This document shows positions 12,900 to 56,937 of a stretch of 64,000 nt of DNA, piece after piece. Under the pieces are notes generated by a model. The model searched no databases. It saw only the letters and a list, made by a program, of their open reading frames with translations, and was not told the origin of the DNA. The position numbers and the translations under genes were made by a program. The stretch comes from Cymodocea nodosa (lineage: Eukaryota > Streptophyta > Magnoliopsida > Alismatales > Cymodoceaceae): NCBI GenBank assembly GCA_036874045.1, contig CM072335.1, positions 16,574,001 through 16,638,000 on the forward strand. Reading direction: 5' to 3'. The first letter of the stretch is position 1, and every line of letters begins with the position of its first letter.

Positions 12900-14183
12900 T
12901 GTTAAAACCCGAGTATTTTAATAATGCAAAACCTATGTGAGGAAACATATTGTATTTCACAATTAAGTCAGTGCAGCATTAAATCAGAAGGCTGTTAGAA
13001 CAAATTCCAAGCAGACGAACAGATCGAGAAGGTTCCAAATGACACTAATTTCAAGTTACAGGAAAATCAGACAATTACAGGTCTAAATATTCAAAGAGTA
13101 AAACAACAGCAAGTCCATCGGACAGTTAGAAGGATAACTATCCAATTTTACAAAGTCTTCGGAGAGTTATTTAATCAGACAGTTAAGTTGGTTGAATAAT
13201 CAAAGAGTTATGGAGTTAACTATCCGAAAGAAAAAGGAAAATCGGAAAGTTAGAAAGGCTAACTATCCGAAACTTAAGTCATTCAATTAACCACGTGCAA
13301 AAATTCAGAACAGAAGCTTAAAGGATTTTTCGAAGAGTTAGGAAGATAACTATCCGACTTTTTCAGTTAGTTACAGGTATAACTTTCTGGAACTTAAGTT
13401 ATCCTATTTCGCACGTGTAGAATGGAGAAGCCGGCAGTTGAAAGCTTAAAAGGGAAAATCGGAGAGTTAGATAACTATCCGAATTTTCAAAGAGAGTTTC
13501 GGTAAGTTACAGTTTAACTATCCGAAACTTAAGTTATTGAAATTGCCACGTGCAGAATTCCAGAAAGAAGATCATTTAAGTTTCCGAAGAGTTAGAAAGA
13601 TAACTATCCGAAATCTCAAGAGAGTTTCGGTGAGTTACGGTTTAACCATTCGAAACTTAAGTCAGTGAATTTCCCACGTGCAGAATTTCAGACAAATGCT
13701 CAAATGGGTTTTCGAAAAGTTAGAAAGATAACTATCCGACAAAGGGGAAGTTTCGGTGAGTTACACTCTTAACTATCCGAAACTTAAGTTATGTTTTATG
13801 CATGTGCACATTTGAAGGGACAGCTATCGGAGAATTAAATGAAAGTTCGGTGAGTTACAAAAGTTAACTATCCGAAAGATAGGAGCTCTCTTTGGTAAGT
13901 TAAATACAAGACTTCGAACTCTTGACATTACACGTGAGCAACTTAAAATCCTCACGTGACTCAAATAATAGAATATGAGTGTTGAATCAGTAAGTTATGG
14001 ATGCTTTTCGGTAAGTTATTTTTATAACCATTCGAAAGCCTGAGATTTTCGGAAGGTTACTTACTGAACATCAGACAAAACGGTAACTTACCATATTTAG
14101 GTCTAATTATTTACCAAGTACAGTAGAATACATCCATTGAAAGAAAAATATGAATGTTATACCTTTGGTATAAATATGAGGAG
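12900..14183 (+). repeat. Copia-3 5' LTR, left part
   Basis: Starts TGTTAAAACCCGAG at 12900 and is interrupted at 14183 by Gypsy-2. It resumes at 52151 and ends CCTAACA at 52678, so the LTR was about 1812 bp. This part is U3 with at least six tandem, diverged units of about 90-110 bp. Each contains CGGAGAGTTA, TAACTATCCGA, ACTTAAGTTA and CACGTG (for example 13460-13482 and 13515-13552). Confidence 0.88.
13090..14060. promoter_or_regulatory. Tandem composite module in Copia-3 U3
   Basis: Repeating order: CGGAGAGTTA, a few bases, TAACTATCCGA, ACTTAAGTTA, about 10 bases, CCACGTGCAGAAT. Clear units start near 13,140, 13,230, 13,340, 13,460, 13,580 and 13,710. CACGTG is the plant G-box core and TAACT/AACGG-like sites resemble MYB targets. 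A promoter role is inference. Confidence 0.5.
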
Positions 14184-15265
14184 TGTTTGTGTTTGGCTAG
14201 CACGACACCAGAAAACTTGTATTGGATCTCCAGCAATGCACTAGAAAAACTTGGATTTGTTAACTTCTGTTTTTCCTTAGTTAATTTATCTTTATGCCTA
14301 TTCTTTTTTTAGAAGAAAACAAACAACCTTTCACACAAATTAGATATTAATTCTAATTTGTATTTTAACTGCAAGGGCATAGTGTCTATTGTATTAGTGT
14401 GCAAGTATAAGTCGATCCCACAGGGAATTGCTTAAGAATTGAAAACTGTTCCATTTTTAACACTCAAATTTATATATTCAATAAGCTCTCCATTGAGTTA
14501 CAGTTATCTCAACGGACAAAGTTCGTTTAGTTATGATTAACTCAACGGACTAACCTCGTGGACTTAAGTTAACTCCACGAGCCTGCATTTTCTTTTTAAT
14601 ACTGCTATTTATAGAGGAATTCGGCCAACCATTGGGCGGTTCCATAGATTGTAAATAACATCAATTAAGCTCTTTAATGTCAGTAAACATTGGATTTATC
14701 ATTCAGCAATACTAACATTCAGATAATTCAAATAGTAACCATTAAAATCTTTAAGTCTTTTGAACGAACCAATTTAAGTAAACTGTAAAACTAAAACAAA
14801 CATAAAACAATCACACACTAACAAAGATAACATTAATCATGATACAACACAAACAGCACAACACTCAAATACAAAATACAATCGCAAATAAGTGTTTTTG
14901 GTATTTTTGTTTTAATATGAACATGGAAATGGGCGAAAGATGAAATGTAAAGTAATCTCAGTCGACAGTAAATACTTCCGTCACTACATGCGACGCGATT
15001 ACACCACTGAAAATTAAACCACTTACAACTCTGTCTCCTCACCCTATAGAATCGCGAGTCTAGAATTGCAAGATGATCTCCTCTTCAGCATACAGGCATC
15101 AACTCGAAACCATGGCTAGAAGCTTTACGATCTCCGGAAATATGAGTCGGTGCTTGGTGAAAATGGCTTCCCTTCCCGCGACGCGATCACTCCTCACAGT
15201 GGTTGTCAAGTGCTGTGTTTGGCTCGGAATCGACCCGACATCAAGAAAGTATCCTCACAGACCTC

Positions 15266-15336
15266 TGATGGTTGGTGATAATGTCGTGATAATGTGGTGG
15301 TGATAATGTGGTGGTAATGATGTGGTGGTGATAATG
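15266..15336 (+). repeat. TGGTGATAATG minisatellite in the LTR
   Basis: Five to six units of 11-15 bases with variants. The 5' LTR counterpart is at 51113-51187. The Gypsy-3 LTRs (about 27,118 and 47,700) have only one or two units, so the array expanded in the Gypsy-2 lineage. Confidence 0.7.
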
Positions 15337-15689
15337 GTTGGTGTGGTACTTCAGAGAATTGCCGACATTATCTACAGAAAGCTTAGTGCTCCTCCTCTGT
15401 ACACATTGGCCATACCCATCGATCACACACACTTTTTCTTTTCTTTTATATTTCTTCAATGGTAACTGCTTCTACTTGAATGGTCGGTTGGATTTCCTTC
15501 ATTCATATCAACGACGATGCTTTCTTCTCCCTTCGACGAGTGAATTCTTGCATGATACGTGCGATCGTGGTTTTTCCTTCCAACTGTCATGTTTCTGCAA
15601 CCGCTACAGTGGCATATTAGAAAATAAATAGTCCGTGGAGTTATAGATAACTCAATGGACTTTCCTCGTTGATTTAACTATAAAACACA

Positions 15690-16090
15690 TGCATAAATTT
15701 AACTATCCGACGCTCAGGTGCATTTCGGATACTTATAAACTTAACTATCCGATGCCTAAATGCATTTCAGATAGTTACAGATAACTCACAGATGAATAAC
15801 TTAAGTAAATCTACTAGATCTCGACACGTGTCAGTAGTAGTTTAATAATAAAAGAAACATTTCGGAGAGTTACAAGTCTAACTATCTGATGCTCAGATGC
15901 ATTTCGGATAGTTAGAGATAACTTACCGAAAATCCACTTAAGACATGCATTATGGTTTCGACACGTGTACTTCAGGAAATAATAAACTATTCTTTTAAAA
16001 CATAACTGTTCGGTAGTTTAAACATAACTATCGAACACATGTTCGGTATGTTAAACATAACTGTTTGAAATATCAGAAAATTCGGATACT
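15690..16090. promoter_or_regulatory. Hairpin and G-box module in Gypsy-2 U3
   Basis: Contains TAACTATCCGATGC paired with GCATTTCGGATAGTTA, AACTTAAG, and two GACACGTGT sites (one at 15959-15968), followed by AACATAACTGTTCGG repeats. The same order occurs in the Gypsy-3 LTRs and in the copia U3s. Function is inferred only. Confidence 0.5.
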
Positions 16091-16294
16091 TAAGAATTTC
16101 ACAGCCTACAACTTACCAACAGTTCAAAAATGTACTAAATTAACATTAATTCCCCCAAATTAAGTAGATTCTTTAATTAAAGCATATAATAGTGCAATTA
16201 TGACATAATGGCTTAATTCTCATATGATAAGCCAAATATTATGCAATTAACCATCATTTAACCGTTAATAATATGCAATTTTTCATTCTAAACA

Positions 16295-16310
16295 CTTCCC
16301 CCATACCTAA
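16295..16310 (-). other. Gypsy-2 polypurine tract
   Basis: The minus-strand run GGTATGGGGGAAG directly abuts the 3' LTR start. The GGGACTAGCAAAATTTAGG context upstream matches the Gypsy-3 and Gypsy-4 PPT contexts. It primes plus-strand DNA synthesis. Confidence 0.85.
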
Positions 16311-16464
16311 ATTTTGCTAGTCCCTTAGCAAACTAAGATCTAATTAATTGGTCTTTCTAAAAGTGCTAGAATTAATTCTTCCCCCCTTTTTTCTTTTGTT
16401 CACCATAAGAACTAGTATTATCATATAGATATTCTATATGTTTCAGTAATATTGTTTTCCCCTC

Positions 16465-17590: not shown

Positions 17591-17621
17591 TAACAAACTT
17601 ACATGGGTGTTACTTTAATTA

Positions 17622-17660
17622 CCTCCCCCCCATACTTACATTTTGCATTGTCCTCAATGT
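17622..17660 (-). other. Extra polypurine tract with CATTGAGGACAATG box
   Basis: The minus strand reads CATTGAGGACAATG (17646-17659), a short inverted repeat, then a G-rich purine run ending GGGGGGGAGG at 17622. Same layout at 28288-28325 and 62498-62540. Probably a second plus-strand priming site, 1.3 kb upstream of the true PPT. Confidence 0.65.
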
Positions 17661-18215: not shown

Positions 18216-18980
18216 TTATAATATATTCTCAAATTCTGTAGATGGTGGTTTAGCTATATCACTCGGTATAGGTAATATTTCTATAAAATCAACATAACTG
18301 TCTATGTTCACTATGTATAAATCAGATCCAAATGCTATTGATATATCTGTGACTAGATATATATATCCATCAAGTATGACATGCATGCTATTGATTAATG
18401 ATTTCTGTCCTAGATATATCATAATATTTTCAGTCCAAGATCTATTTAGAAAATTATACACACTTAAGCGTAAATCTTCACCCCAATTTCTTGTAGGTCT
18501 CCAATAATATAATTTTTCAGGGATTGTAGAATTTTTATCAGAAAATATTAAAGCCGACCCACAATTTACAGTTGGTACTTCATATCTATTAGGTCTTCCT
18601 ATATACCATTCTTCTCTTGTTATAGGATTTCTTATCAAAATATCAGGTAATAAACTTGCATACCTTGGTCTCGTCCTGTATATGATTAATCCTTCATCTA
18701 TCCCCATAATATGATCTATTCCTTCTAATGTATTGGGTGGAATTCCAGTAGTTTCTTCCATAGGCAGATATTCATGGTTAATTGAACTATGATTAAATGA
18801 CTTCCATATGAATCCATCTCTAATCTTAGTCATTTTTGCAGCTTGTAGTCCCTGAAAATATTTCTCTTCAATACAGTCTTTAATTTCTTTTGATACACAA
18901 CACATCTTGCACAGATCTTTAGCTGATAAGTTATTCAGTACTTCCCTTAGTGCATCCAACGGTAATTGCATCAATTCCAT
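18216..18980 (-). CDS. F-box protein carried inside Gypsy-2
   Basis: 254 codons, undamaged, with ATG at 18980 and TAA at 18216. The N-terminus is an F-box (residues about 5-45: LPLDALREVLNNLSAKDLC, then MCCVSKEIKDCIEEKYF), the motif that binds SKP1 in SCF ubiquitin ligases. The rest resembles the beta-rich substrate-side half of plant F-box proteins (NPITREEWYIG, LYYWRPTRNW, SVYNFLNRSW) and is shorter than most. It sits between the capsid gene and the extra PPT on the retrotransposon sense strand. A piece of the same gene is at 37808-38012 in Gypsy-3, so it has moved with the element. No stops or frameshifts, unlike its neighbours. Whether it is expressed is unknown. Confidence 0.75.
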   Translation of the reverse strand: MELMQLPLDALREVLNNLSAKDLCKMCCVSKEIKDCIEEKYFQGLQAAKMTKIRDGFIWKSFNHSSINHEYLPMEETTGIPPNTLEGIDHIMGIDEGLIIYRTRPRYASLLPDILIRNPITREEWYIGRPNRYEVPTVNCGSALIFSDKNSTIPEKLYYWRPTRNWGEDLRLSVYNFLNRSWTENIMIYLGQKSLINSMHVILDGYIYLVTDISIAFGSDLYIVNIDSYVDFIEILPIPSDIAKPPSTEFENIL

Positions 18981-19170
18981 TTGTCGATTCTATATAACAC
19001 ACACAAAAATTTAGCAAAGACAAAAATTAACATAACTACTGCACACCCTTGTGGAATTAAGGCATAACTCAACGGACTAAGTTCATTGAGTTAAGGACTA
19101 ACTCTACGATACTATTAACTATAAAAAAAAAAACCATATATATACAGATAGTTGCTTTAGATATGCTGCT
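18981..19170 (-). other. Spacer with palindromic motif between capsid and F-box genes
   Basis: Holds TAACTCAACGGACTAAGTTC then ATTGAGTTAAGG (about 19,064-19,100), with CTTGTGGAATTAAGG upstream. This is the LTR-type motif located immediately 5' of the F-box gene on its coding strand. Confidence 0.5.
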
Positions 19171-20510: not shown

Positions 20511-21454
20511 AAATAAATAGTAGAAGATTAATCACATACCAGTCTAAAGCTTTCCATTTAGTAAATATTTGTTGACGGATGAAGTCGAATTAGCTGCTTC
20601 TCCTTCCAGTTCCTCCAACACTTTTCTTCTTTCTTTTAAAAGTGCTGATAACTTGTAAATAACATTCTGTTCTATATATATAATGCACATCCATAAAATG
20701 AATAAATCTCGTTGCAAGAACGTGTCTTGCAACATGCAGCGTGGTTCCTATTTTTATGGGTACGTGTACCACTATTAATTTCAAATTTTGGTAACCGCTA
20801 AGTCGACGAAGTTTTGTTCGTGGTTAAAAGAATAACCGTTCTACTTAATCCATGAACTAACCTCGTTGTGTTACAAATAACTCAATGGAATAAAGTCGGT
20901 TACTATTGCTAACTCCACGGACTAACTTCGTTGAGTTATAAATAACTCAACGGAGTGACCTTATGTTATATTATTGACCTCGTGGAGTTAAGTTTAACTC
21001 AATGAACTTACTTCGTTGGGTTAACACTTAGCAACTTCTAAGTTTACTCCTCGTAAGTACCTCTCTACTTTATTCTGCATTCTGCTAACTGAAATAAAGT
21101 TAAATCTATGTCATTAATGCATCATTATAATCAAAATTCGTTTAAATTTGAACATTATATAAATATTTAACTTGTAGGTCAATTTATGTTATGTAGAATT
21201 TACATTTTACCTTGCAACATGTAGAAATTTTCAAGCATCTATCCTGTCATTTAGCAAATTGTAAATCTGTTAAACATTCATTCATAATGTTCCACAAATT
21301 ATATAACATTCAATAAATTCTATTCATTTCACATTGAAAACACGTATGAAAAGTATATCTAAAAACTTTATATTCATTAATATGAATCAATTTACATTAC
21401 AAATACATCATACAATTTTCATACAATTCTATATAAGTAGACGAACAATACAAT
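20511..21454 (-). other. Spacer between accessory ORF and capsid gene
   Basis: Contains LTR-like paired motifs at 20,850-21,035 (CTCGTTGTGTTACA, AACTCCACGGACTAACTTCG, CGTGGAGTTAAG, AACTCAATGAACTTAC). It may act as leader or promoter for the capsid gene (inference). The remaining sequence is AT-rich without a recognised gene. Confidence 0.5.
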
Positions 21455-23651: not shown

Positions 23652-24290
23652 CGTGGATTTACACAACAGTACAGAATCGCTCTGATCTCTACTATTCTAA
23701 ATTCTAACTGGTTTGCTGGATAATGCCCCCAAAACCCTAGGTTTTAGTTTAAATAAGCCCTAAGTTTAGGCAGGTAATCGGGTCATTTCCCGAACCAACT
23801 ATTGCTCTCTCATCCGCGGTCTTAGCTACAATACTCCATTGAGTTACAGTTTACTCAACGGAATAAGCTCGTTGACTAACTCAAGACTCAACGGAGTAAG
23901 CTCATTGAGTTAAGCATAACTCAACGGACTTCCCGTACAAATAGATATATATAATAATAAAAATACTTAAGGTAATAGTTTTTCTATTTTTACCAGTTTA
24001 ACCGATACTATGTTTCGATTAGACCTAATTTTTTTTCGGTTGAACCAATACTCTGTTTTGGTAAAACTAGAAAATTTTTTTTTCTTTTGAAAATTAATAT
24101 ACATATTTTTTTATGTTCCGGTCATACTGATGGATCTAGTCGGTTGAACCGTAACGATTTTTTTTATATTATATATATATATATATATCAACATAAAAAC
24201 TGATTTCCTACTAAGTAAAGCTCGAGTAGTCCTCTACTCTGACTTCTTCTATAATTCCAAAGGAGCTTTTTGGTGTTTTCAGAATAGGTC
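23652..24290 (-). other. Spacer between integrase and accessory ORF
   Basis: Contains TTGAGTTA / TAACTCAACGG paired motifs at 23,830-23,930, pyrimidine/purine runs, and an (AT)n tract at 24,165-24,190. Matches 41,323-41,890 of Gypsy-3. No gene. Confidence 0.5.
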
Positions 24291-24297
24291 TAAGTTT

Positions 24298-25340
24298 TTA
24301 TCCATTTACTTTAAATATATTCTGATTTTTAGGATTTTCAATTTCAATAGCTCCATAAGGATAAATATTTCGAACTATGTAAGGTCCTGCCCATCTAGAT
24401 CTTAATTTTCCTAGATGGTTATAGAGTCTAGCCATATAAAGATATACTTCTTGTCCTATTTCAAAGCTTTTTAGAATAATTTTCCTATCATGCCAGAATT
24501 TCATTTTCTCTTTTTCTCTTACAGTTTTCGAATAAGCTTCATTTCTAAATTCTTCTAATTCAATTAATTACATTTTTCTATTTTCAGCAGCTTGATTTAA
24601 ATTAGTATTCAGAGTTTTTAATGCCCAATAAGTTTTATGTTCTATTTCAGCTGGTAAATGACAACTTTTTCCATATACTAGCCTAAAAGGTGACATAGCT
24701 AAGCTTGTCTTATAAGCAGTTTTATAAGCCCAAAGTGCATCTATCAATCTATTAGCCCAATCTGTTCTAGTAGGATTTACTACTTTTTCTAAGATTAACT
24801 TAATTTGTTTGTTAGCACTTTCTACTTGTCTACTTGTTTGCGGATGATATGATGTTGCAATTTTGTGGTTTACTCCATATTTCTTCATTAAGGCTTCAAA
24901 ACTTCTATTACAGAAATGAGTTCCTCTATCATTGATAATAGCTTTAGGTATTCCAAATCTGGTAAATATATTGGTTCTTATAAATTGTATTACCACTTTG
25001 TTGTCATTAGTTTTTGTAGAAATATCTTCTATCCATTTAGATACATAATCCACCCCCAACAATATGTAATTAAATTGATTAGACATAGGAAATGGACCCA
25101 TAAAATCTATTCCCCACACATCAAAGATTTCAACCTCAACAATAGGATTAAGAGGCATCATATTCCTCTTTGATATTCTTCCTATTTGTTGACATCTTAA
25201 ACAACTTAAGCAATATTTATGAGCATCTTTGAATAGTGTTGGCCAATAAAACCCACATTGCAGAATTTTTGTAGCAGTTTTTCCTGAACCAAAATGCCCT
25301 CCACAAGCTTGGTCATGACAGAAAGACAATATGCTTAGAT
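24298..25340 (-). pseudogene. Gypsy-2 integrase
   Basis: H2C2 zinc-binding segment ([33 protein letters not shown]), then the core with all three acidic residues: [24 protein letters not shown] and the Glu in [14 protein letters not shown]. Then [37 protein letters not shown] and a C-terminal KLRSRWAGPYIV segment. No chromodomain is seen. One stop near 24,566 splits off the C-terminus. The family inserts cDNA into the genome. Open for 368 codons together with the RT tail. Confidence 0.9.
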
Positions 25341-26014
25341 ATTCAGTTTCTGGAACACACCTCCACAAGCTAGTTTTAAGTCTGAATAATGCTTCCTTGC
25401 AATTTTTATCAAAGTTAAATGGAACATCTTTTAATAGATTAGTTAAAGGTCTGGCTATTTTGCTAAAGTCTTTAATAAATCTTCTATAAAAACCAGCATG
25501 CCCTAGAAATGATCTAATATCTTTTACTGATTTAGGTTCTGGTAGATTAGAAATTACTTCTATTTTAGCTTTATCTACTTCCAACCCTTTCTTAGAAACA
25601 ACATGCCCTAAGACTATTCCTTGTTTAACCATGAAGTGACATTTTTCCCAATTCAAAACTAGATTTTTTTCCACCTAGCGTTTTAATATTAGGTCTAAAT
25701 TGCTTAAACAAACTTCATATGAGTTACCATATACGGTAAAATCATCCATAAATATTTCTAAAAAATCTTCAATCATTCCAGTAAATATGCCTTGCATACA
25801 CCTTTGAAAGGTAGCTGATGCATTGCATAATCCGAATGGCATTCTCTTAAAAGCATAAGTTCCATTAGGACAGGTGAAAGTTGTTTTCTCTTGATCCCCT
25901 AATGCTACTGGAATTTGATTATAACCTGAATACCCATCTAGGAAACAAAAATATTCTTGCCTTGCTAATCTTTCCAGCATTTGATCGATAAAAGGTAAGG
26001 GAAAATGATCTTTT
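25341..26014 (-). pseudogene. Gypsy-2 reverse transcriptase, truncated and fused to integrase
   Basis: RT from the MLERLARQEYFCFLDGYSGY segment through MPFGLCNASATFQRCMQG and the catalytic FMDDFTVYG, to [15 protein letters not shown] and [13 protein letters not shown] stop lies at 25,675. The RNase H and connection region present in Gypsy-3 (about 43,020-43,670) is missing, with the frame kept. The RT N-terminus and protease are also deleted at about 26,015. Confidence 0.88.
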
Positions 26015-26064
26015 CGCTCTCTTTTCTTAGTACACCAATCCTTTAGAAATTTAGCACAAGGTGG
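26015..26064 (-). pseudogene. Linker remnant before the Gypsy-3 insertion
   Basis: Matches about 45,474-45,523 of Gypsy-3 (the CAKFLKDWCTKKRE-like segment). Its continuation is at 48925, across Gypsy-3. GGTGG at 26060-26064 is the left copy of the target duplication. Confidence 0.75.
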
Positions 26065-28061
26065 TGTTTGTGTTTTCCCAACACTACACCAGAAAAACTT
26101 GGATTTGTTACTTCTATTTTTACTTAGTTAATTTATCTTTATGCCTATTCTTTCTTTTAGAAGTAAACAAACAACCTTTAATACAATTTAGATATTAATT
26201 CCAATTTGTCATTTGGCTGCAAGTGCAGAGTGTCTATTGTATTTGTGTGCAAGTACAGGTCAATCCCATAGGGAATTGCTGAAAAGTTTGAGAACTGTTC
26301 GTTTGTTAACAATCAAATTTATATATTCAATAAGCTCTCCGTTGAATTACAGTTAACTCAACGGATAAAGTTCGTTGAATTATAGCTAAGTCAATGGACT
26401 AACCTCGTGGACTTAAGTTAACTCCACGAGCTTGTCTTTTCTTTTTAATACTGCTATTTATAGAGGAATTCAGCCAACCATTGGGCGATTCCATAGATTG
26501 TAAATAACATTAATTAAGCTCTTTAATGTTAGTAAACACTGGATTTATCATTAAGCAATACTAACATTAAGATAATTCAAACAGTAACCATTAAAATCTT
26601 TAAGTCTTTTGAATGAACCAATTTCAGTAAACTGTAAAACTAAAACAAACATAAAACAATTACAACACTGACAAAGATAATATTAATCACGATGCAACAC
26701 AAACAATACAACACTCAAATACAACATACAATATAGATAAATTGTTTTTGGTATTTTTGTTTTAATATAAACATGGAAATGGGTGAAAGGTGAAATGTAA
26801 AGTAATCTCACTCGACAGTAAATACTTCCAACACTACTTGCAACGCGATTACACCATTGAAAATTAAACCACTTACAATTTTGTCTCCTCTCCCTATAGA
26901 ATCGCGAGTCCAGAATTGCAAGATAATCTTCTCTTCAGCATACAGGCATCAACCTGAAGCCAAGGCTAAAAGCTTTACGATCTCTTGAAATATGAGTCGG
27001 CGCTTGGTGAAAATGGCTTCCCTTCTTGCGACGCGATCACTCCTCACAGTGGTTGTCAGGCACGGTGTTTTGCTCGGAATCGACCTAACATCAGAAAAGT
27101 ATTCTCATAGACCTCCGATGGTTGGTGATTATGGTGGTGGTAACGATAGTTGGTGTGATACTTCGGAGAATCACCGATACTGTCTGCAGAAAGTTCGGTG
27201 CTCCCCCTCTGTATACACTGGCCGTCCATCGATCACACCTACTTCTTTTTCTTCTTTTCTTTTATATTTCTTCAGTAGTAACTACTTCTACTTGAATGAT
27301 CAGTTGGATTTCCTTCATTCATACCAACGGCGATGATTTCTTCTCCCTACGTAATACATGCAATCGTGGTTTTTCTTCCAACTGTCCTGTTTCTGCAACC
27401 GCTACAGTGGCATATTAGAAAATAAATAGTCCGTGGAGTTATAGATAACTCAACGGACTTTCTTCGTTGATTTAACTATAAAACACGTGCATAAATTTAA
27501 CTATCCGATGCTTAGATGTATTTCAGATACTTATAAACTCAACTATCCGATGCTTAGATGCATTTCGGATAGTCAAAGACTTAACTATCTGATGCTCAGA
27601 TGCATTTTTGATAGTTAGAGATAACTCACCGAAAGTTCACTTAAGTCATGCATTATGGTTTCGACACGTGTACTTTAGGAAATAATAAAATATTCTTTCA
27701 AAACATAACTGTTCGGCAATTTAAACATAACTATCCGACATGTTCGGTCTGTTAAAGATAACTGTTCGAAATATGTTCTGTATGTTAAACATAATTGTCC
27801 GAAATATGTTCGGTATGTTAAACATAACTGTCTGAAATATCAGAAAATTCGGATACTTAAGAATTTCACAACCTGCAACTTACCGACAATTCAAAAATGT
27901 ACTAAATTGACATTAATTCCCCAAAATTAAGCAGATTCTTCAATTAAAGCATATAATAGTGCAATTATAACATACTGGCTTAATTCTCATATGATAAGCT
28001 AAATATCATGTAATTAACCATCATTTAACAGTTAATAATATGCACTTTTTCATTCTAAACA
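26065..28061 (-). repeat. Gypsy-3 3' LTR
   Basis: 1997 bp; minus-strand TGTTTAGAATGAAAA to CACAAACA. TATA-like TATAAATAGC at 26454-26463. U3 hairpin/G-box module at about 27,490-27,850. It is shorter than the 5' LTR because it has fewer copies of the module. Confidence 0.9.
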
Positions 28062-28842: not shown

Positions 28843-29455
28843 TGTAGGATCGTATGGCTACACAAGAGGGGGGTGAATTGTGTATTTTTAATATTTTCTG
28901 AAATATAATTGAAACTTTAAAACTCAAAAACAAGTCGAGACAGTGTTTTCATAAAATCATTTTTATTCAAGGTTTCAATTACAATATACAATTCAATTCT
29001 CCTCAGAAATTGTAGATGCAATTATATCTCGATACCATGTATCATCTAAACAATTTCATAACTACAAACAGAGAAAACTAGTTTGCGGAATTTAAAACAT
29101 TTCTCCCTGTTTGAGATCTTTCTCCTTCTTCTTTCTTCTTCAGCAATTCTTCAGTGACGAATATCTTGTCTTTCTCTGCTTCACCGAATTTGCTTTCTTA
29201 TGATACTTCAAATCTTCAGTGACGAAAATCTTACCTTTTTATGCTTCACTGAATTTTCTTCCACTTGAGAGATTTTCCCCGAGAAGGTGTTTTTGATCCC
29301 TGAAAAAGATTTTTCTTTTGGTGTGCAAGGATGGTTTGATCCTTGAAAAGATTTTTCTTTTGTGTGCAAGGATAGTTTGATCAACGAGAACTTTATGCCT
29401 TTTATACTGTATCTTCATTTCATGCATATCCTCCATGTTTAATCACTACCAGTTT
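28843..29455 (-). repeat. Copia-2 3' LTR, R/U5 part only
   Basis: Ends GATCCTACA on the minus strand at 28843. Matches 36180-36790 of the 5' LTR. All of U3 upstream of about the TATA region is missing; at 29455 it joins the 65 bp that follow the PPT. Confidence 0.85.
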
Positions 29456-36177: not shown

Positions 36178-36179
36178 CT

Positions 36180-37807
36180 TGTAGGATCGTATGGCTACAC
36201 AAGAGGGGGGTGAATTGTTTATCTTTAATATTTTCTGAAATATAATTGAAACTTTAAAACTCAAAAACAAGTTGAGACAGTGTTTTCATAAAATCATTTT
36301 TATTCAAGGTTTCAATTACAATATACAATTCAATTCTCCTCAGAAATTGTAGATGCAATTATATCTCGATACCATATATTATCTAAACAATTTCATAACT
36401 ATAAACAGAAAAAACTAATTTGCGGAATTTAAAACATTTCTCCCTGTTTGAGATCTTTCTCCTTCTTCTTTCTTCTTCAGCAATTCTTCAGTGACGAATA
36501 TCTTGTCTTTCTCTGCTTCACCGAATTTGCTTTCTTATGATACTTCAAATCTTCAGTGACGAAAATCTTACCTTTTTATGCTTCACTGAATTTTCTTCCA
36601 CTTGAGAGATTTTCCTCGAGAAGGTGTTTTTGATCCCTGAAAAAGATTTTTCTTTTGGTGTGTAGGGATGGTTTGATCCTTGAAAAGATTTTTCTTTTTG
36701 TGTGCAAGGATAGTTTGATCAACGAGAACTTTATGCCTTTTATACTGTATCTTCATTTCATGCATATCCTCCACGTTTAATCACTACCAGTTTTCCACTT
36801 CTCCACGTCTTTTCTTTTTCCTTCATTGAAAGACACGTTCTAACCCACGTTTATATTTCAAATTTTCTTTAATCATCAGTCTTTGATCTCTGAAAAATTT
36901 CCTGCAAAATAAACTTTCTTGTCCAAAATTTTTTCATCAATGTAATAAGAAGTCGTTACTTTAATGTTAACTAAATGAGTAACACAAGTATATATATATA
37001 ACTTAACGTTTCTAACTTAACAAGTTCCTCATGTGCCATTTCACATGACGAGTACTGTAGACAACTCAACAAACTAAGTCTGTGGTGTTATGCTATCTCA
37101 ACGAACCATCTCTGTTGTGTTATGATAACTCAACGAACACAGTTTAAGTTTCGGATAGTTACAGATGTAAGTCACCGAAAAGCTTTAACTCACCAATTCA
37201 GTAATAAACAAATGTTTTTATAATAAGAATTTTACCACGTGCAAAAATAACAACTTAAGTTTATAACGCTAACCTAATGCGTTGCCTTAGTGTTCAATAT
37301 AGCAACTCAACGCGTTTAGTTATGTTAACTTAACGAGTTAAACATGTGCACCTCACGTGATACAATACAACATTTGTAACTTATAATTTCACCACATGTA
37401 TAACACTAACTTAACGAGTTCGTCTCTTCTTTTACTCACTAACTTAACGAATTATCACATGACCTATTTTAACCTTTAAGCCTCTAACTTAACGAGTTCT
37501 CACGTGACCTCTATACAAACAAAACTCTAACTTAACGAGTGTCTAAACGTGCACTGTTCATGATACAGAAGATATAACTTTAAAACATATCATGCTTTTC
37601 AATAAAACCACACGTTAACTTAGCGTTTAGCTAAATGAGAAATTAATGCAACGAAATGACTAGTTATTAACTTCAGATCCAATACAGACAAGTATTTATA
37701 TCAGTAAGCTTTTTCTGTATTAATTGATGATTTTAATTTCTTTTCACAAGCAATAGTAATTGAGCAAATATGATTATTTTCATTCAGCACACATCATCGA
37801 AACAAAA
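36180..37807 (-). repeat. Copia-2 5' LTR
   Basis: Ends GATCCTACA at 36180; lacks its first 7 bases at 37807. TATA-like TATAAAAGG at about 36,733-36,742. The U3 array of TAACTTAACGAGTT with CACGTG lies at 37,000-37,640, and a CGGATAGTTA/TCACCGAAA block at 37,150-37,190 is absent from the solo LTR. Confidence 0.9.
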
Positions 37808-38220: not shown

Positions 38221-39111
38221 TTAATTACATACTAGTCTGAAGCTTTCCATTCATTAAATATTTGTTGTCGGATGAAGTTGAATCAGCTGCTTCTCTTTCC
38301 AATTCCTCCAAAGCATTCTCCTTTCTTTTAAAAGTGCTGGTAACTCGTAAATAACATTCTGATTTGTATATATAATGTACATCCATAAAGTGAATAAATC
38401 TTGTTGCAAGAACGTGTCTTGCAACGTGCATCGTGGTTCTTATTTTTATGGGTACGTGTACCACTATTAATTTTAAATTTTGGTAACCACTAAATCGACG
38501 AAGTTTCGTTCCTGGTTAAAAGAATAGCTATTCTGCTTAATCCACGAACTAACCTCGTTGAGTTATCTAACTCCACGGACTAACTTCGTTGAGTCATAGA
38601 TAACTCAATGGAGTGACCTTATATTATATTACTGACCTCGTGGAGTTACAGTTAACTCAACGAACTTACTTCGTTGAGTTAACACTTAGCAACCTCTAAG
38701 TTTTACTCTCGTAAATTCCTCTCTGTTCTTTTCTATTTCATTCTGCTAACTAAAATAAAGTTAAATCTATGTCATTAATGCATCCTTCTAATTAAAATAC
38801 GTTTAAATCTGAACATTATATAAAGATTTAACTTGCAGGTCATTTTATATTATGCAGAATTTACATTTTACCTTGCCACATGTAGAAATTTTTAAGCATT
38901 TATCTTGTCATTCAGCAAATTGTAAATCTGTTACATATTCATTCATAAAGTTCCACAAATTATATAATATTCAATAAATTCCATTCATTTCACATCCAAA
39001 ACACGTATGAAAAGTACATCTAAAAAGTTATATTCATTAATATGAATCAATTTACATTACAAATACATCATGCATTTTCATACAATTATACAAGTAGATG
39101 AACAATACAAT
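38221..39111 (-). other. Spacer between accessory ORF and capsid gene (Gypsy-3)
   Basis: Counterpart of 20,511-21,454. Palindromic motifs at 38,490-38,695 (ACGAACTAACCTCGTTGAG, CGTGGAGTTACAGTTAACTC). No gene. Confidence 0.5.
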
Positions 39112-41322: not shown

Positions 41323-41890
41323 CGTGGAGTTACCCAACAATACAGAATCGCTCTAATTTCTACTATTCTAGATTCTAAATGATTTGCGGGATAATGCCCC
41401 CAAAACCCTAAGTTTAAGATAAATAAGCCCTAAGTTTAGGTAGGTAATCAGGTCATTTCCCGAACCAACTATTACTATCTCTTCCGCGGTCTTAGCTATA
41501 GTACTCTGTTGAGTTATAGTTAACTCAACGGAATAAGCTCGTTGACTAACTCAAGACTCAACGGAGTAAGCTCGTTGAGTTAAGCGTAACTCAACGGACT
41601 CCCCATACAAACAAATATAATAATAAAAATACTACAGATATTAGTTTTTCTATTTAACTTCTTTTTTTTTTCTCTCGATTTAACCGATACTATGTTTCGG
41701 TTAGACCTAATTTTTTTTCAAAAATTAATATACATATTTTTTATGTTCCGGTCATACCGATGGATCCAGTCGATTGAACCGTAACGATTTTTATATTATA
41801 TATATATATATATATTTCTTTTTGTGTTTCTTTTTTTTTATAAATTTTTTTTATATATAAACATAAAAACTGATTTCTTACTAAGTAAAG
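41323..41890 (-). other. Spacer between integrase and accessory ORF (Gypsy-3)
   Basis: Paired motifs GTTGAGTTA/TAACTCAACGGA at 41,510-41,600, a conserved CCGGTCATACCGATGGATCC stretch, and an (AT)n tract near 41,795-41,815. No gene. Confidence 0.5.
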
Positions 41891-46641: not shown

Positions 46642-46648
46642 TAAAACT

Positions 46649-48919
46649 TGTTTGTGTTTTCCCAACACTACACCAGAAAAACTTGGATTTGTTACTTCTA
46701 TTTTTACTTAGTTAATTTATCTTTATGCCTATTCTTTCTTTTAGAAGTAAACAAACAACATTTAATACAATTTAGATCTTAATTCCAATTTGTACTTTAA
46801 CTACAAGTGCACAGTGTCTATTGTATCAGTGTGCAAGTACAAGTCGATCTCACAGGGAATTGCTGAAAAGTTTGAGAACTGTTTGTTTGTTAACAATCAA
46901 ATTTATATATTCAATAAGCTCTCCGTTGAATTACAGTTAACTCAATGGATAAAGTTTGTTGAATTATGGCTAACTCAATGGACTAACCTCGTGGACTTAA
47001 GTTAACTCCACGAGCCTGTCTTTTCTTTTTAATACTGCTATTTACAGAGGAATTTGGCCAACCATTGGGCGATTCCACATATTGTAAATAACATCAATTA
47101 AGCTCTTTAATGTTAGTAAACACTAGATTTATCATTAAGCAATACTAACATTCAGATAATTCAAATGGTAACCAATAAAATCTTTAAGTCTTTTGAACGA
47201 ACCAATTTCAATAAACTGTAAAACTAAAACAAACATAAAACAATCACAACATTGATAAAGATAACATTAATCACGATGCAACACAAACAATACAACACTC
47301 AAATACAACATACAATATAGATAAATTGTTTTTGGTATTTTTATTTTAATATGAACATGGAAATGGGCAAAAGGTGAAATGTAAAGTAATCTCACTCGAT
47401 AGTAAATACTTCCGACACTACTTGCAACGCGATTATACCATTGAAAATTAAACCACTTACAATTCTGTCTCCTCTCCCTATAGAATCGTGAGTCCAGAAT
47501 TGCAAGATAATCTTCTCTTCAACATACAGGCATCAACCTGAAGCCAAGGCTAAAAGCTTTATGATCTCCTGAAATATGAGTTGGCGCTTGGTGAAAATGG
47601 CTTCCCTTCCCGTGACGTGATCACTCCTCACAGTGGTTGTCAGGCACTATGTTTTGATCGGAATCGACCCAACATCAGGAAAGTATTCTCACAGACCTCC
47701 GATGGTTGGTGATTATGGTGGTGGTAACGATAGTTGGTGTGATACTTCGAAGAATCACTGATACTGTCTGCAGAAAGCTCGGTGCTCCTCCTCTGTATAC
47801 ACTAGCCGTCCATCGATCACACCTACTTCTTTTTCTTCTTTTCTTTTATATTTCTTCAATAGTAATTGCTTTTGCTTGAATGATCGGTTGGATTTCCTTC
47901 ATTCATATCAACGGCGATGATTTCTTCTCCCTACACAATACATGCAATCGTGGTTTTTCTTCCAACTATCCTGTTTCTACAACCGTTACAGTGGCATATT
48001 AGAAAATAAATAGTCCGTGGAGTTACAGATAACTCAACGGACTTTCTTCGTTGATTTAACTATAAAACACGTGCATAAATTTAACTATCCGATGCTTAGA
48101 TGCATTTCGGATACTTATAAACCTAACTATCCGATGCTCAGATGCATTTCGGATAGTTAAAGACTTAACTATCCGATGCTCAGATGCATTTCAGATAGTT
48201 AGAGATAAATCACTGATATATAACTTAAGTAAATCTACCAGATCTCGACACGTGTCAGCAGTAGTTTAATAATAAAATACCCATTTTGAAGAGTTACAGG
48301 TCTAACTATCCGATGCTCTGATGCATTTCAGATAGTTGCAAATAACTCACCGAAAGTTCACTTAAGTCACTTTACCAGAACATGACACGTGTCCACAACT
48401 ATTTTATAAATAAAAAGAGATTTCAGAGGGTTACACATACAACTGTCCGATGCCCAGTTGCAATTTCGGATAGTTAGAGATAACTCACTGAAAGTTCACT
48501 TAAGTCATGCATTATGGATTCGACACGTGTACTTCAGGAAATAATAAAATATTCTTTCAAAACATAACTGTTCGGTAATTTAAACATAACTATTTGACAT
48601 GTTCGGTCTGTTAAATATAACTGTCTGAAATATGTTCTATATGTTAAACATAACTGTCCGAAATATGTTCGGTATGTTAAACATAACTGTCCAAAATATC
48701 AGAAAATTCGGATACTTAATAATTTCACAGCCTACAACTTACCAACAGTTCAGAAATGTACTAAATTGACATTAATTCCCCAAAATTAAGCAAATTCTTC
48801 AATTAAAGCATATAACAGTGCAATTATAACATAATGACTTAATTCTCATATGATAAGCTAAATATTATGCAATTAACTATCATTTAACCGTTATAATGTG
48901 CATTTTGTCATTCTTAACA
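46649..48919 (-). repeat. Gypsy-3 5' LTR
   Basis: 2271 bp with the same ends as its partner at 26065-28061. U3 has three tandem copies of a module of about 130 bp (48,170-48,550) where the 3' LTR has one. The TATA-like box is changed to TGTAAATAGC (about 47,035). Confidence 0.9.
48065..48720. promoter_or_regulatory. Tandem hairpin/G-box modules in Gypsy-3 5' LTR
   Basis: A strong hairpin at 48124-48159 pairs TAACTATCCGATGC with GCATTTCGGATAGTTA. Each unit then has AACTCACCGAAA, ACTTAAGT and GACACGTGT (about 48,248, 48,388, 48,522), followed by AACATAACTGTCCGAAATA repeats. Regulatory role inferred. Confidence 0.5.
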
Positions 48920-48924
48920 GGTGG

Positions 48925-49921: not shown

Positions 49922-50029
49922 ATATTCTCAATTACAGAAGAAAACACACAACACTCTAACTATTAAAATGAAATAGCTCTAACAGTTACTTATATTAATT
50001 CAATTCCCTGGCAATGGCGCTATAAAACT
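49922..50029 (-). other. Gypsy-2 leader and tRNA-Asp primer-binding site
   Basis: Minus-strand TAGCGCCATTGCCAGGGA at 50005-50022, three mismatches from the tRNA-Asp complement, seven bases from the LTR. Confidence 0.88.
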
Positions 50030-52145
50030 TGTTTGTGTTTGGCCAACACGACACTAGAAAACTTGTATTAGATCTCCAGCAATGCACTAGAAAAACTTGG
50101 ATTTGTTAACTTCTGTTTTTCCTTAGTTAATTTATCTTTATGCCTATTCTTTTTTTTAAAGAAAACAAACAACCTTTCACACAAATTAGATATTAATTTC
50201 AATTTGTATTTTAACTGCAAGTGCACAGTGTCTATTGTATTAGTGTGCAAGTACAGGTCGATCCCACAGGGAATTGCTTAAGAATTGAGAACTGTTCCAT
50301 TTTTAACACTCAAATTTATATATTCAATAAGCTCTCCGTTGAGTTACAGTTATCTCAATGAACAAAGTCCGTTTAGTTATGGCTAACTCAACGGACTAAC
50401 CTTGTGGTCTTAAGTTAACTCCACGAGCTTGCATTTTCTTTTAAATACTGCTATTTACAAAGGAATTCGGCCAACCATTGGGCGGTTCCATAGATTGTAA
50501 ATAACATCAATTAAGCTCTATAATGTCAGTAAATGTTGGATTTATCATTCAGCAATACTAACATTCAGATAATTCAAACAGTAACTATTAAAATCTTTAA
50601 GTCTTTTGAACAAACCAATTTAAGTAAACTGTAAAACTAAAACAAACGTAAAACAATCACACACTGACAAAGATAACATTAATCACGATACAACACAAAC
50701 AGTACAACACTCAAATACAAAATACAATCGCAAATAAGTGTTTTTGGTATTTTTGTTTTCATATGAACATGGAAATGGGCGAAAGATGAAATGTAAAGTA
50801 ATCTCAGTCGATAGTAAATACTTTCGTCACTACATGCGACGCAATTACACCACTGAAAATTAAACCACTTACAACTCTGTCTCCTCTCCCTATATAATCG
50901 TGAGTTTAGAATTGCAAGATGATTTCCTCTTTAGCATACAGGCATCAACCCGAAACCAAGGCTAGAAGCTTTACAATCTCCTGAAATATGAGTCGGTGCT
51001 TGGTGAAAATGGCTTCCCTTCCCGCGACGCGATCACTCCTCACAGTGGTTGTCAGGCACTGTGTTTGGCTCGGAATCGACCCGACGTCAGGAAAGCATCC
51101 TCACAGACCTCTGATGGTTGGTGATAATGTGGTGGTGATAATGTGGTGGTGATAATGTGGTGGTAATGATGTGGTGGTGATAATGGTTGGTGTGGTACTT
51201 CAGAGAATTGCCGACACTGTCTACAGAAAGTTCGGTGCTCCTCCTCTATACACATTGGCCATACCCATCGATCACACACACTTTACTTCTTTTCTTTTAT
51301 ATTTCTTCAGTGGTAACTACTTCTGCTTGAATGGTCGGTTGGATTTTCTTCATTCATATCAACGACGATGCTTTCTTCTCCCTTCGACGAGTGAATTCCT
51401 GTGTGATACGTGCGATCGTGGTTTTTCCTTCCAACTGTCCTGTTTCTGCAACCGCTATAGTGGCATATTAGAAAATAAATAGTCCGTGGAGTTACAGATA
51501 ACTCTACAGACTTTCCTCGTTGATTTAACTATAAAACACATGCATAAATTTAACTATCCGATGCTTAGGTGCATTTCGGATACTTATAAACTTAACTATC
51601 TGATGCCTAGATGCATTTTAGATAGTTACAGATAACTCACAAATATATAACTTAAGTAAATCTACCAGATCTTGACACGTGTCAGCAGCAGTTTAATAAT
51701 AAAAGAAACATTTCGGAGAGTTATAGGTCTAACTATCCGATGCTTAGATGCATTTCGGATAGTTAGAGATAACTTACCAAAAATCCACTTAAGACATGCA
51801 TTATGGTTTCGACACGTGTACTTTAGGAAATAATAAACTATTCTTTTAAAACATAACTGTTCGACAGTTTAAACATAACTATCCGATACATGTTCAGTAT
51901 GTTAAACATAACTATCCGAAATATCAGAAAATTTGGATACTTAAGAATTTCATAGCCTACAACTTACCGACAGTTCAAAAATGTACTAAATTAACATTAA
52001 TTCCCCCAAATTAAGCAGATTCTTTAATTAAAGCATATAATAGTGCAATTATGACATAATGGCTTAATTCTCATATGATAAGCTAAATATTATGCAATTA
52101 ACCATCATTTAACCGTTAATAATATGCACTTTTTCATTCTAAACA
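50030..52145 (-). repeat. Gypsy-2 5' LTR
   Basis: 2116 bp, paired with 14184-16294. Right flank AGGAG (52146-52150) equals the bases left of the 3' LTR. Minisatellite at 51113-51187. U3 module at about 51,550-51,940. Confidence 0.92.
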
Positions 52146-52150
52146 AGGAG

Positions 52151-52678
52151 TTTGAGTGAAGAAAATACAGAGATAACGTATATACCACATAGAGTGAGCT
52201 ATACTTCAATTCCAATTACACTCAAGTCTGCAAACAGTGAAGCATATTCTAAAGATCTACTGTAGAAAAACTCTATGCGCCAAAACTCTGATTGAAAGAC
52301 TCAAGTTGTTGGTTTGTGGCTTCAACCTGAAAGCTACATTAAGTTGTTGGTTTTAGTTTCGACCTGAAAACTCTAGAGGTTGGTTTACTGAAGTTTATAC
52401 CTGAAAACTTCCGTGTTGTTGGTTCTTGCTTTGACCTGAAAGCAAGTGTGTAAGTGTTGAAACACTTAGTGAAGCCCAAGTGAATCTTGGGGGTGGACTA
52501 GCCAATTTGGTGAACCACCTAAAACTTGCCGTGTGTTATCTTTCTTCTCTACTTTGCATTCATTTAGTTTCATCTCATTTCATTTTTGTTGAATCATTCG
52601 ATTCAACAATTAGAAAGAATATAAAAATTACACACATTCACCATTCACCCCCCTCTGGTGAGTCTACCGATCCTAACA
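52151..52678 (+). repeat. Copia-3 5' LTR, right part
   Basis: Continues 12900-14183 after Gypsy-2. Contains repeated TTGTTGGTT...GACCTGAAAG units (52,305-52,450). Ends CACCCCCCTCTGG...CCTAACA directly before the PBS. Confidence 0.88.
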
Positions 52679-52680
52679 AT

Positions 52681-52692
52681 TGGTATTAGAGA
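52681..52692 (+). other. Copia-3 primer-binding site
   Basis: TGGTATTAGAGA, two mismatches from the canonical tRNA-iMet site TGGTATCAGAGC. Confidence 0.85.
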
Positions 52693-52730
52693 AAGGTTAA
52701 TCCTTCTTAAGATTGAACCATCTAGATTTA

Positions 52731-54016: not shown

Positions 54017-54299
54017 AGGACAAAAAGGATTAAATGAAATAATAGGATCTCAATGATCAAATGGGAATAAATATGGCCTAGGGTATGCTACACCACAGGA
54101 AATACCTTATTGTGGTGGAGTGATTCGATCTTATAGAGATGGCACCACTGTGTTGGCCATCAAACGAAGATCAGGTCATATGTGGCTGCCAAGAGGCAAT
54201 AGATTTAATGTTTTAAGGACTAACTCTACTGGACCCAAGAAGATTTGGGTACCAAAAGCTTTAATTTCAGTATGATTTGTAGGGTGACAAGGAGTTTCA
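54017..54299 (+). pseudogene. Copia-3 gag tail
   Basis: Degenerate gag C-terminus ending TGPKKIWVPKALIS, then an out-of-frame stretch whose next frame reads LQGDKEFQARSTKWIVD. Confidence 0.6.
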
Positions 54300-54690
54300 A
54301 GCACGTTCAACTAAATGGATTGTGGACAATGAATGTCTTGCATGTAAATGGATTGAAACAAAATTTGTTAAGTGTAGGACAATTATGTGATAAAGGTTAT
54401 ACTATTTCTTTTAATGCTGAAAATTGCTACATTATTGATCTAGCCACGAATGATACAAAATTTACTAATAATAGAAATTGCTCAATATATACTTTCCATG
54501 TGAAAATTCTGCAAGCAATCCCTGTTTGGTAGCAACTAGTGAAGATGATTGGGTGTGGCATAGAAGACTTGGTCACATTAGTATGAAGAATATCAAAAAG
54601 CTTTCCACAGGTGATCTTGTTAGGGGTCTGCCTAAATTCACTTTTAAGAAAGATAGAGTGTGCAGTGAGTGTATGCTAGGGAAGTAGAAG
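54300..54690 (+). pseudogene. Copia-3 protease remnant and pre-integrase
   Basis: The protease is cut right after KWIVD: the DSG active site and following flap are deleted. The sequence resumes at VLHVNGLKQNLLSVGQLCDK. The pre-integrase motif WVWHRRLGHISMKNIKKLST and zinc ligands (CSECMLGK) are present, with a frameshift near 54,520 and a TAG at 54,688. Confidence 0.8.
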
Positions 54691-55100
54691 AGAACTACTC
54701 TTCACAGCAAGAATGTTGTGTCCACCAAAAGGCCATTAGAACTACTACATCTAGATTTGTTTGGTCCTTCTCAAGTATCAAGTCTTGGGGGTCGAAAGTA
54801 TACATTTGTTATTGTTGATGATTTCTCCAGATTAACTTGGGTAATATTTTTGACACATAAAAATGAAACTTGCAATGAGTTCAGGAATTTCTGCATAAGA
54901 GTTCAGAATCAGAAGGAACTAACAGTGAAGAAAATTACAAGTGATCATGGAGGAGAATTTGAAAACTATGAATTTGAAAACCTTTGCAATTCATTTGGAA
55001 TTCTGCATGAATTCTCCTGTCCTAGAACTCCTACTCAAAATGGAGTTGTGGAAAGGAAAAATAGGATATTATAAGAAATGGCTAGAACTATGTTAAATGT
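54691..55100 (+). pseudogene. Copia-3 integrase, cut by Copia-4
   Basis: LLHLDLFGPSQVSSLGGRKY (Asp), KITSDHGGEFENYEFE (Asp), TQNGVVERKNRIL (Glu), then a TAA and EMARTMLN. At 55100 the gene is interrupted by the Copia-4 LTR and does not resume in the window. Confidence 0.88.
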
Positions 55101-56937
55101 TGTTGAGTATTTTGTTTTGATGATGTGTGCTGAATGAAAATAATCATATTTGCTCAATTACAATTGCTTGTGAAAAGAAATTAAAATCATCAATTAATAC
55201 AGAAAAAACTTACTAGCATAAATACTTGTCTATATTGGATCTGAAGTTATTAACTAGTCGTTTCGTTGCATTAATTTCTCATTTAACTAAACGTTAAGTT
55301 AATGTGTGTTTTTATTGAAAAACATGATATATTTTAAAGTTATATCTTTCGTATCATGAACAGTGCACGTTTAGACAACTCATTAAGTTAGAGTTTTGTT
55401 TGTATAGAGGTCATGTGAGAACTCGTTAAGTTAGAGGCTTAAAAGTTAAAATAGGTCACATGATAACTCGTTAAGTTAGTAAGTAAAAGAAGAGACAAAC
55501 TCGTTAAGTTAGTGTTATACACGTGGTGAAATTATAAGTTACAAATGTTGTATTGTATCACGTGAGGTGTACATGTTTAACTCGTTAAGTTAACATAACT
55601 AAATGCGTTGAGTTGCTATATTGAACACTAAGGCAACACGTTAGGTTAGCATAATAAACTTAAGTTATTAGTTTTGCACGTGGTAAAATTCTTATTATAA
55701 AAACATTTGTTTATTACTGAATCGATGAGTTAAAGTTTTTCGGAGACTTATAGTCGTAACTATCCGAAAGGTAACTTAAGTCATGTTTTCAGGTCTTGAC
55801 ACGTGTCTCACTAGTTTTATGGTAAAAAAAGAGTTTTTCGGTGACTTACAACTGTAACTATCTAAAACTTAAACTATTTTTGGTGAGTTATTGTTTAACC
55901 TTCTGAAAGAAAGGTTATGCTGATTTGTTGAGTTAGCATAACACCACAGATTTAGTTCGTTGAATTAGTTACAGTACTTGTCATGTGAAATGGCACATGA
56001 GGAACTCGTTAAGTTAGAAACATTAAGTTATATTTATATACTTGTGTTACTCGTTTAGTTAATATTAAAGTAACGACTCCTTATTACGCTTGATGAAAGA
56101 TTTTGGACGAGAAAGTTTATTTTTTAGGAAATTTTTTAGAGATCCAGGACTGATGATTAAAGAAAATTTGAAATATAAACGTGGGTCAGAACGTGTGTGT
56201 TTTGATGAAGGAAAAAGAAAAGATGGAGAAGTGGAAAACTGGTAGTGATTAAATGTGAAGGATATGCATGAAATGAAGATACAATATAAAAGGCAAAGAA
56301 TTCTCGGTGATCAAACTATCCCTGCACACCAAAAGAAAAATCTTTTTCAGGGATCAAAAACACCTCCTCGGGGAAAATTTCTCAAGTGGAAGAAAGTTCA
56401 GTGAAGTAGAAAAGGTCAAATTTATGTTGCTGAAGATTTGAAGTATCAAGTGGAAGAAAGTTCAATGAAGTAGAAAATGTCAAATTTATGTCGTTGAAGA
56501 TTTAAAGTATCAAGTGAAAGAAAATTCAGTGAAGCAGAATCAGGTATTATTTATGTCACTGAAGATTTAAAGTATCAGAAGAAAGCAAATTCAGTGAAGC
56601 AGAGAAAGACAAGATATTCGTCACTGAAGAATTGCTGAAGAAGAAAAAGAAGAAGAAGAAAGATCTCAAACAGGGAGAAATGTTTTAAATTCCGCAAATT
56701 AGTTTTCTCTGTTTGTAGTTATGAAATTGTTTAGATGATACATGGTATTGAGATATAATTGCATCTATAATTTCTGAGGAGAATTGAATTGTATATTGTA
56801 ATTGAAACCTTGAATAAAAATGATTTTATGAAAACAATGTCTCGACTTGTTTTTGTGTTTTAAAGTTTCAATTATATTTCAGAAAATATTAAAAATACAT
56901 AATTCACCCCCCTCTTGTGTAGCCATACGATCCTACA
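55101..56937 (+). repeat. Copia-4 5' LTR
   Basis: 1837 bp, TGTTGAGTATTTTG to GATCCTACA, followed by a PBS. Same family as the solo LTR and Copia-2 but plus strand. It carries the full composite module: TAACTATCCGAAA (55757-55769), ACTTAAGTCATG, GACACGTGTC (55798-55807). TATA-like box near 56,285. Confidence 0.92.
56387..56640 (+). repeat. Tandem repeat of about 63 bp in Copia-4 R/U5
   Basis: Four diverged units starting TCAAGTGGAAGAAAGTTCAG and ending GAAGATTTGAAGTA. Other LTRs of the family have about two units. Confidence 0.75.

Follow-up and report, generated by a model that had tools for sequence, protein, structure and literature searches.

The window analyzed here, 64 kb of Cymodocea nodosa DNA (positions 16,574,001 to 16,638,000 of contig CM072335.1), is made up of a nest of long terminal repeat (LTR) retrotransposons in which one box-based sequence module recurs in LTRs of both the copia and the gypsy superfamily. 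The module is carried by LTRs of three Sirevirus-like copia families (Copia-1, Copia-3 and Copia-4, the last also called F3) and by Athila-like gypsy LTRs, and the arrays in the U3 (unique 3’) regions of several of these copia families and of Athila contain TAACTNTCCG in inverted pairs, ACTTAAGT, CACGTG and the sister boxes TAACTCAACG and TAACTTAACG. We consider it likely that copia and gypsy U3s here are fixed-spacing arrays of palindromic boxes, and that copia pieces passed into Athila LTRs as two hybrid types that were then spread by retrotransposition. An initial annotation of the window had attributed the shared module to exchange of U3 segments or to selection for a common promoter grammar, and had suggested that the G-box and MYB-like parts might confer stress or hormone control. 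Athila LTRs that hold a copia U3 piece and exist in many copies support exchange; the evidence for selection is indirect, with conserved cores clear in Copia-3 only.

The window contains 40 copies of TAACTNTCCG, 22 of ACTTAAGT and 35 of CACGTG, as compared with means of 0.28, 2.57 and 2.59 (maxima 2, 7 and 7) in 100 dinucleotide shuffles, which bears out the annotated sharing of a module by copia and gypsy LTRs. All copies of the first two words and 34 of the 35 CACGTG words fall within LTRs (19,596 bp or 31% of the window, in intervals hand-drawn from repeat matches and LTR ends), as do all 24 copies of the sister box TAACTTAACG. The other sister box, TAACTCAACG, occurs 10 times in LTRs and 16 times outside them, 15 of the latter in repeated gypsy-type internal segments. 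Separately, TAACTCAACG forms clusters of 33-bp inverted tandems in the gypsy internal DNA on both sides of env-like open reading frames (ORFs), at 10,388-10,547, 20,929-20,952, 23,837-23,928, 38,556-38,681 and 41,508-41,598.

In stretches sampled elsewhere in the genome the boxes follow repeats. In 12 of 18 hand-placed 10-kb stretches (180 kb in total) TAACTNTCCG was absent, so that the equal density in unrelated genomic DNA that would have spoken against the initial annotation was not observed. Four of the six stretches with TAACTNTCCG are 66-85% repeat-covered, and in the other two (L011, with three boxes, and L023, with four) the listed boxes lie within Copia-3-like LTR pieces. The repeat-rich stretches L016 and L022 lack TAACTNTCCG and contain sister boxes, and the nine stretches without any of the three box words have a repeat coverage of at most 33%. 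Eleven of these stretches have 43 listed ORFs, and the 27 of them that were examined include the host-gene domains APEH, WDR11 and PPR as well as the transposable-element domains RVT_1, RVT_2 and DDE; the domains are not assignable to individual stretches, except APEH in L006. These distributions bear on the idea of a host satellite or promoter fragment that copia and gypsy LTRs captured separately: tandem repetition in the window, with periods of 128 and 137 bp, does look satellite-like, but the 18-, 12- and 11-bp modules of the window are confined to LTRs and the boxes of the sampled stretches to repeat-like DNA, making such capture very improbable.

The initial annotation described ordered parts at similar spacing. 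The order does recur, but its first two parts, CGGANAGTTA and TAACTATCCGA, are a single motif in two orientations, so that the module consists of an inverted repeat and two palindromes; pairs of the form CGGATAGTTA, 4-7 nt, TAACTATCCG occur in the U3 arrays of the copia LTRs. The gaps are fixed, though not uniform: there are two main classes (18 and 12 bp) and an additional 11-bp form in the Copia-4 family. In the first class, found in Copia-1, Copia-4 and Athila, the box is followed after 7 bp by ACTTAAGT and after a further 18 bp by CACGTG, and in the second, found in Copia-3, these distances are 2 and 12 bp. Across the window and 23 loci, 41 of 41 exact ACTTAAGT-CACGTG pairs within 40 bp have a gap of 18 (22 pairs), 12 (13) or 11 bp (6), and the reversed sequences of the same set yielded no such pair. 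When the genome (374.6 Mb in 28 contigs) was searched, ACTTAAGT and CACGTG were found 5-30 bp apart at 12,693 + 12,836 = 25,529 places, as compared with 34 + 24 = 58 for the reversed pattern; among the first 100 places listed, all on one contig, the gap was 18 bp in 65, 11 bp in 22, 12 bp in 11 and 8 bp in 2. The inverted pair TAACTATCCGA-CGGATAGTTA was matched 3,711 times in forward and 3,722 times in reverse orientation, for the most part at identical places, versus 0 times for its reversed form. The fetched loci say nothing about prevalence, L001-L005 coming from a motif search and L024-L030 having been chosen for unusual spacers. One locus, L026 (G000:C1:3318501-3321000), has an 11-bp ACTTAAGT-CACGTG pair and TAACTATACGA-like boxes beside copia-like reverse transcriptase (RT)/RNase H pieces and matches no other fetched locus; it is perhaps a further carrier family.

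Pieces of the module arrays are homologous across copia and gypsy, as judged from alignments that extend beyond the boxes. Among eight LTR representatives, the best copia-gypsy match joins Athila to the Copia-1 LTR of L009 over 74 bp at 79.7% identity, spacers included (E 3.7e-13 in this small set), as compared with E 0.002 for the best match to reversed decoys. In a comparison of spacers and flanks among 25 hand-chosen modules, five of the seven cross-family pairs listed are more alike than random LTR windows, at a level of 0.005 or better. Spacer identity between the Athila array subtypes b and c is 0.21, and that between one of them and a Copia-1 module is 0.58, so the spread within an array can exceed the spread between superfamilies. 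The premise that copia and gypsy LTRs have separate origins is thus wrong in part, for their U3 pieces.

The clearest cases of transfer are Athila LTRs with a copia insert. In L029, an Athila LTR is followed by about 390 bp of F3 U3 and then by Athila LTR again, and this order is shared by 10 of 10 fetched loci, one of which is the place of the query itself. A 581-bp query spanning the junctions was matched over nearly its full length at 40 places among the 40 of 7,765 candidates that were scored: its own locus at 100% identity and a further 39 at 89-92%. In Athila LTR coordinates, the sequence stops at 1,507-1,513 and restarts at 1,631-1,634, with an F3 piece of 71-74% identity between. A tree of eight Athila and nine F3 rows of this older piece separates them into two clades (100/100). 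Shorter forms of the copia piece occur in L002, L004, L005, L007, L009 and L030; the large piece was not found in the four Athila LTRs of the window, L001 or L024, where the matches are short and at module level.

A second, younger type is represented by L003, which carries F3 pieces (LTR positions 950-1,441, with deletions) at 93-98% identity. Its 441-bp query was again matched almost end to end at 40 places, its own locus and a further 39 at 93-96% identity (40 of 3,246 candidates scored), and in L041-L044 Athila sequence flanks the piece on both sides. The matches listed include four same-strand pairs 12.3-14.5 kb apart, a spacing as for the two LTRs of one element. When the tree is rooted by the older type, the younger pieces fall among the F3 LTRs (F3 and younger hybrid together 100/100, with the inner order mostly weak), and on this placement F3 copia is the likely donor. 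Both hybrid types are thus seen at at least 40 places each, the copia piece standing in Athila sense in both, and the sequences suggest that U3 pieces were transferred from copia to gypsy at least twice.

Several of the junctions coincide with a CACGTG word, or a variant of it, that is common to both parents. In six of nine scanned regions (L002, L007, L009a, L029, L030b and L036), the left junction is at CACGTGCA or its variant ACATGCA, which both parents possess; the right junction is at CACGTGCA in L004 and L009b and near ACTTAA in L036. Since the parents are about 20-28% divergent here, the exact breakpoint bases are not fixed. Within F3, LTRs that are otherwise alike differ by gain or loss of the cassette with the 18-bp gap, which is missing (50-1,631, L016 and L022), half present (36,180-37,807) or full (55,101-56,937, 60,336-60,725 and L013, a stretch incomplete on its left); loss of the sequence between AGTTTTTCGG repeats could account for the half form. 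Hybrids could also have arisen when copia LTRs inserted into Athila LTRs, were subsequently shortened by deletions and were then copied, with no recombination between replicating elements; by this route, too, a gypsy LTR acquires a copia U3 piece. In favour of such a history, nested elements are common in the window and the younger piece shows internal deletions. However, the pieces retain neither F3 LTR end, both types lie in Athila sense, the junctions fall at shared boxes, and the older type replaces Athila positions ~1,514-1,631 instead of merely interrupting them; we therefore regard this history as unlikely.

A number of observations weigh against transfer by recombination of useful, box-bearing pieces. 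The left junctions of L004, L005 and L009b differ from the rest and are without the CACGTG word. The module runs forward relative to LTR sense in Copia-3 and Copia-4 and in reverse in Copia-1 and Athila, a family dependence that simple collinear recombination does not explain, and two of the seven cross-family module pairs are at chance level in spacer and flank (0.12). Bootstrap values in the trees of the younger type are unsettled, and two of its LTR pairs are 96.6% and 96.4% alike, versus 95.9-96.6% for unpaired copies; as identity fails to single the pairs out, only spacing and strand suggest that they belong to one element. Finally, of the four families a single one shows significantly conserved cores: the identity of motif columns as compared with the remaining columns is 0.867 vs 0.716 in Copia-3, with no circular shift as large, but 0.870 vs 0.844 in Athila (0.19 of shifts as large), 0.899 vs 0.842 in Copia-1 (0.10) and 0.933 vs 0.929 in F3 (0.49), values slightly biased toward conservation by the location of motifs on the same alignments.

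Conservation being clear in Copia-3 alone, support for function comes from that family and from the fixed spacing, the 18-bp gap staying constant though the spacers vary (the 65 places listed have 44 different spacers); a promoter grammar with a function is plausible. Box CpG sites are weakly conserved (0.66-0.82), as expected for methylated DNA. A simple word search places TATA-like words, which are candidate TATA boxes only, on the downstream side of the arrays in four of four LTR families, with several such words in each Athila LTR. Alternatively, common factors may have selected the same boxes and spacing independently in each LTR family, without any exchange; in favour of this, the gap is fixed while spacers differ, Copia-3 has conserved cores and a spacing class of its own, and module orientations are opposite between families. 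Convergence of this kind may apply to Copia-3 versus the rest. As a sole cause it is contradicted by the 75-400-bp copia U3 pieces inside Athila LTRs, and spacers and flanks align across the superfamilies; we deem it quite unlikely as the general explanation.

For the transfer of copia pieces into Athila LTRs, we propose that box arrays upstream of the promoter could act as a control platform bound by host or element-coded factors, in which case a borrowed piece would be useful in its new LTR, and that the boxes could also supply the short homology for LTR-LTR recombination that moves pieces of the platform between superfamilies. Each hybrid type would stem from one exchange, either by template switching between co-packaged RNAs or by conversion between neighbouring or nested LTRs, assisted by shared boxes, and would then have multiplied by retrotransposition as a working LTR. 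The same-sense placement in both types fits template switching during reverse transcription, a model set out in passages of PMC1950507, and conversion between neighbouring LTRs could produce it too. More tentatively, and with less than even confidence, we suggest that one trans-acting factor, host- or element-coded, reads the fixed-spacing box-ACTTAAGT-CACGTG unit as a control language common to the main LTR elements of the genome, in which the boxes also serve as switch points; any piece would then function in any LTR, and trading of U3s between copia and gypsy would continue.

Superfamily assignments are based on Pfam matches: Retrotran_gag_2 and RVT_2 in Copia-1 and a gag match in Copia-3 (copia superfamily), and RVT_1 (2.1e-18, at 25,678-26,127) with rve and Integrase_H2C2 (24,571-25,674) for the gypsy-type internal DNA. 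A methionine-tRNA-like primer site, GTGGTATCAGAGC, adjoins the F3 and Copia-1 LTRs. The env-like ORF of the gypsy elements matches Transposase_32, which we take to be an Athila marker, weakly (scores of 22 and 27 bits against a curated threshold of 45). Sirevirus and Athila are presumed lineage names, consistent with the LTR ends and primer sites seen. Many of the 120 listed matches of a copia RNase H piece are eudicot entries, at 52-67% identity, with one bacterial name among those shown.

The layout of the window is given in the table. The Copia-3 LTR of the initial annotation does contain a module array, but 12,900-14,183 is its first part only, and the LTR continues to 52,678 with an Athila element in between; the two parts match side by side in L023. 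The Copia-1 pol (50-8,473 region) has an F3-type LTR on one side and a Copia-1-type LTR on the other, and may belong to a hybrid element or reflect a rearrangement. Scanning the window for Rfam families and for tRNAs yielded no matches. Two further features stand apart: an ORF with an F-box domain amid the retrotransposons (18,219-18,989), and a G+C-rich low-complexity stretch with periods of 7, 13 and 39 (61,493-61,740) in the otherwise A+T-rich window.

Table. LTR-retrotransposon features of the window, in window coordinates.
Feature	Position	Strand	Remarks
F3 copia LTR (Copia-4 family)	50-1,631	-	Repeat matches, TG...CA ends; 18-bp-gap cassette absent; many TAACTTAACG and CACGTG boxes (box map)
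Copia-1 pol	1,822-6,763		Adjoining LTR 6,756-8,473
Copia-1 LTR	6,756-8,473	-	Ends identified; whole LTR matched by L025; ACTTAAGT at 8,011, CACGTG at 8,037
Copia-3 5’ LTR, first part	12,900-14,183	+	Tandem module array 13,119-14,009; TATA-like word downstream at 14,169
Outer Athila-like gypsy element (Athila-A)	14,184-52,145	-	Target repeat AGGAG; inside Copia-3 LTR
Athila-A 3’ LTR	14,184-16,294	-	Modules 15,799-15,830 and 15,936-15,967; purine tract adjoins
Second Athila-like element (Athila-B)	26,065-48,919		Target repeat GGTGG; splits outer Athila element
Athila-B 3’ LTR	26,065-28,061	-	Target repeat GGTGG at 26,060-26,064
F3 copia LTR, cut	28,843-29,455		Repeat matches
F3 copia LTR, half-cassette form	36,180-37,807	-	Repeat matches
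Athila-B 5’ LTR	46,649-48,919	-	Three modules; primer-site-like TGGCATCGTTGCCGGGG adjoins
Athila-A 5’ LTR	50,030-52,145	-	Two modules; 94.7% match to 14,184-16,294
Copia-3 5’ LTR, remainder past Athila insertion	52,146-52,678	+	First 5 bases are the target repeat; then primer-site-like TGGTATTAGAG
F3 copia LTR (Copia-4 of the initial annotation)	55,101-56,937	+	Full ~190-bp cassette ~55,733-55,920; TATA-like word 56,285
Rearranged F3 LTR	59,209-61,103	+	Cassette present, CACGTG decayed to CATGTG

Copia and gypsy are usually treated as separate lineages with only the host in common. If their control regions recombine, a single event could equip an element with a new switch, its silencing and stress response might depart from the RT tree, and a classification based on LTRs can be misleading. 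Because the hybrids exist in many copies and their junctions can be read, the route of exchange (template switching versus gene conversion) is open to testing, as is, through the fixed spacing and binding assays, a common reading factor. A literature search, judged by titles, abstracts and passages and with most subscription journals outside its scope, returned no earlier report of U3 exchange between copia and gypsy. LTR swapping has reportedly been seen in soybean.

The closest parallels concern pieces of the phenomenon. Recombinant or chimeric LTRs between related elements are described for ONSEN (passages of PMC5668417), and template switching between related elements for Triticeae (PMC1950507, in the portion consulted); as here, LTR sequence was swapped between co-active elements, plausibly by template switching, but those exchanges, as far as these sources were covered, stay within a family or superfamily, whereas here the copia-gypsy boundary is crossed by a U3 piece only. 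Junctions shared by many dispersed copies, by which a chimeric LTR is recognized, are found here. The VANC target motifs of VANDAL DNA transposons are also short, multiplied in tandem in non-coding element sequence and shared by an unrelated element, AT9TSD1, which has the VANC6 motif (passages of PMC5735166); there the motifs are others and the binding protein is known, VANC-type anti-silencing being the work of an element-coded protein that binds the motif and removes methylation. Sirevirus RM boxes, finally, are palindromic with a CGG-CCG signature and are repeated many times within the U3 half of copia LTRs, on the upstream side of the TATA box, with extra boxes upstream of env (PMC2829016, in the sections consulted), much as the copia LTRs here carry repeated palindromic CGG-CCG boxes in U3 arrays. 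The boxes found here differ from the published ones in a longer inner part and in being joined with ACTTAAGT and CACGTG at fixed gaps, and whereas the same sections describe RM boxes as Sirevirus-specific relative to other copia elements, here they are also abundant in gypsy-type LTRs, those flanking internal DNA with RVT_1 and integrase.

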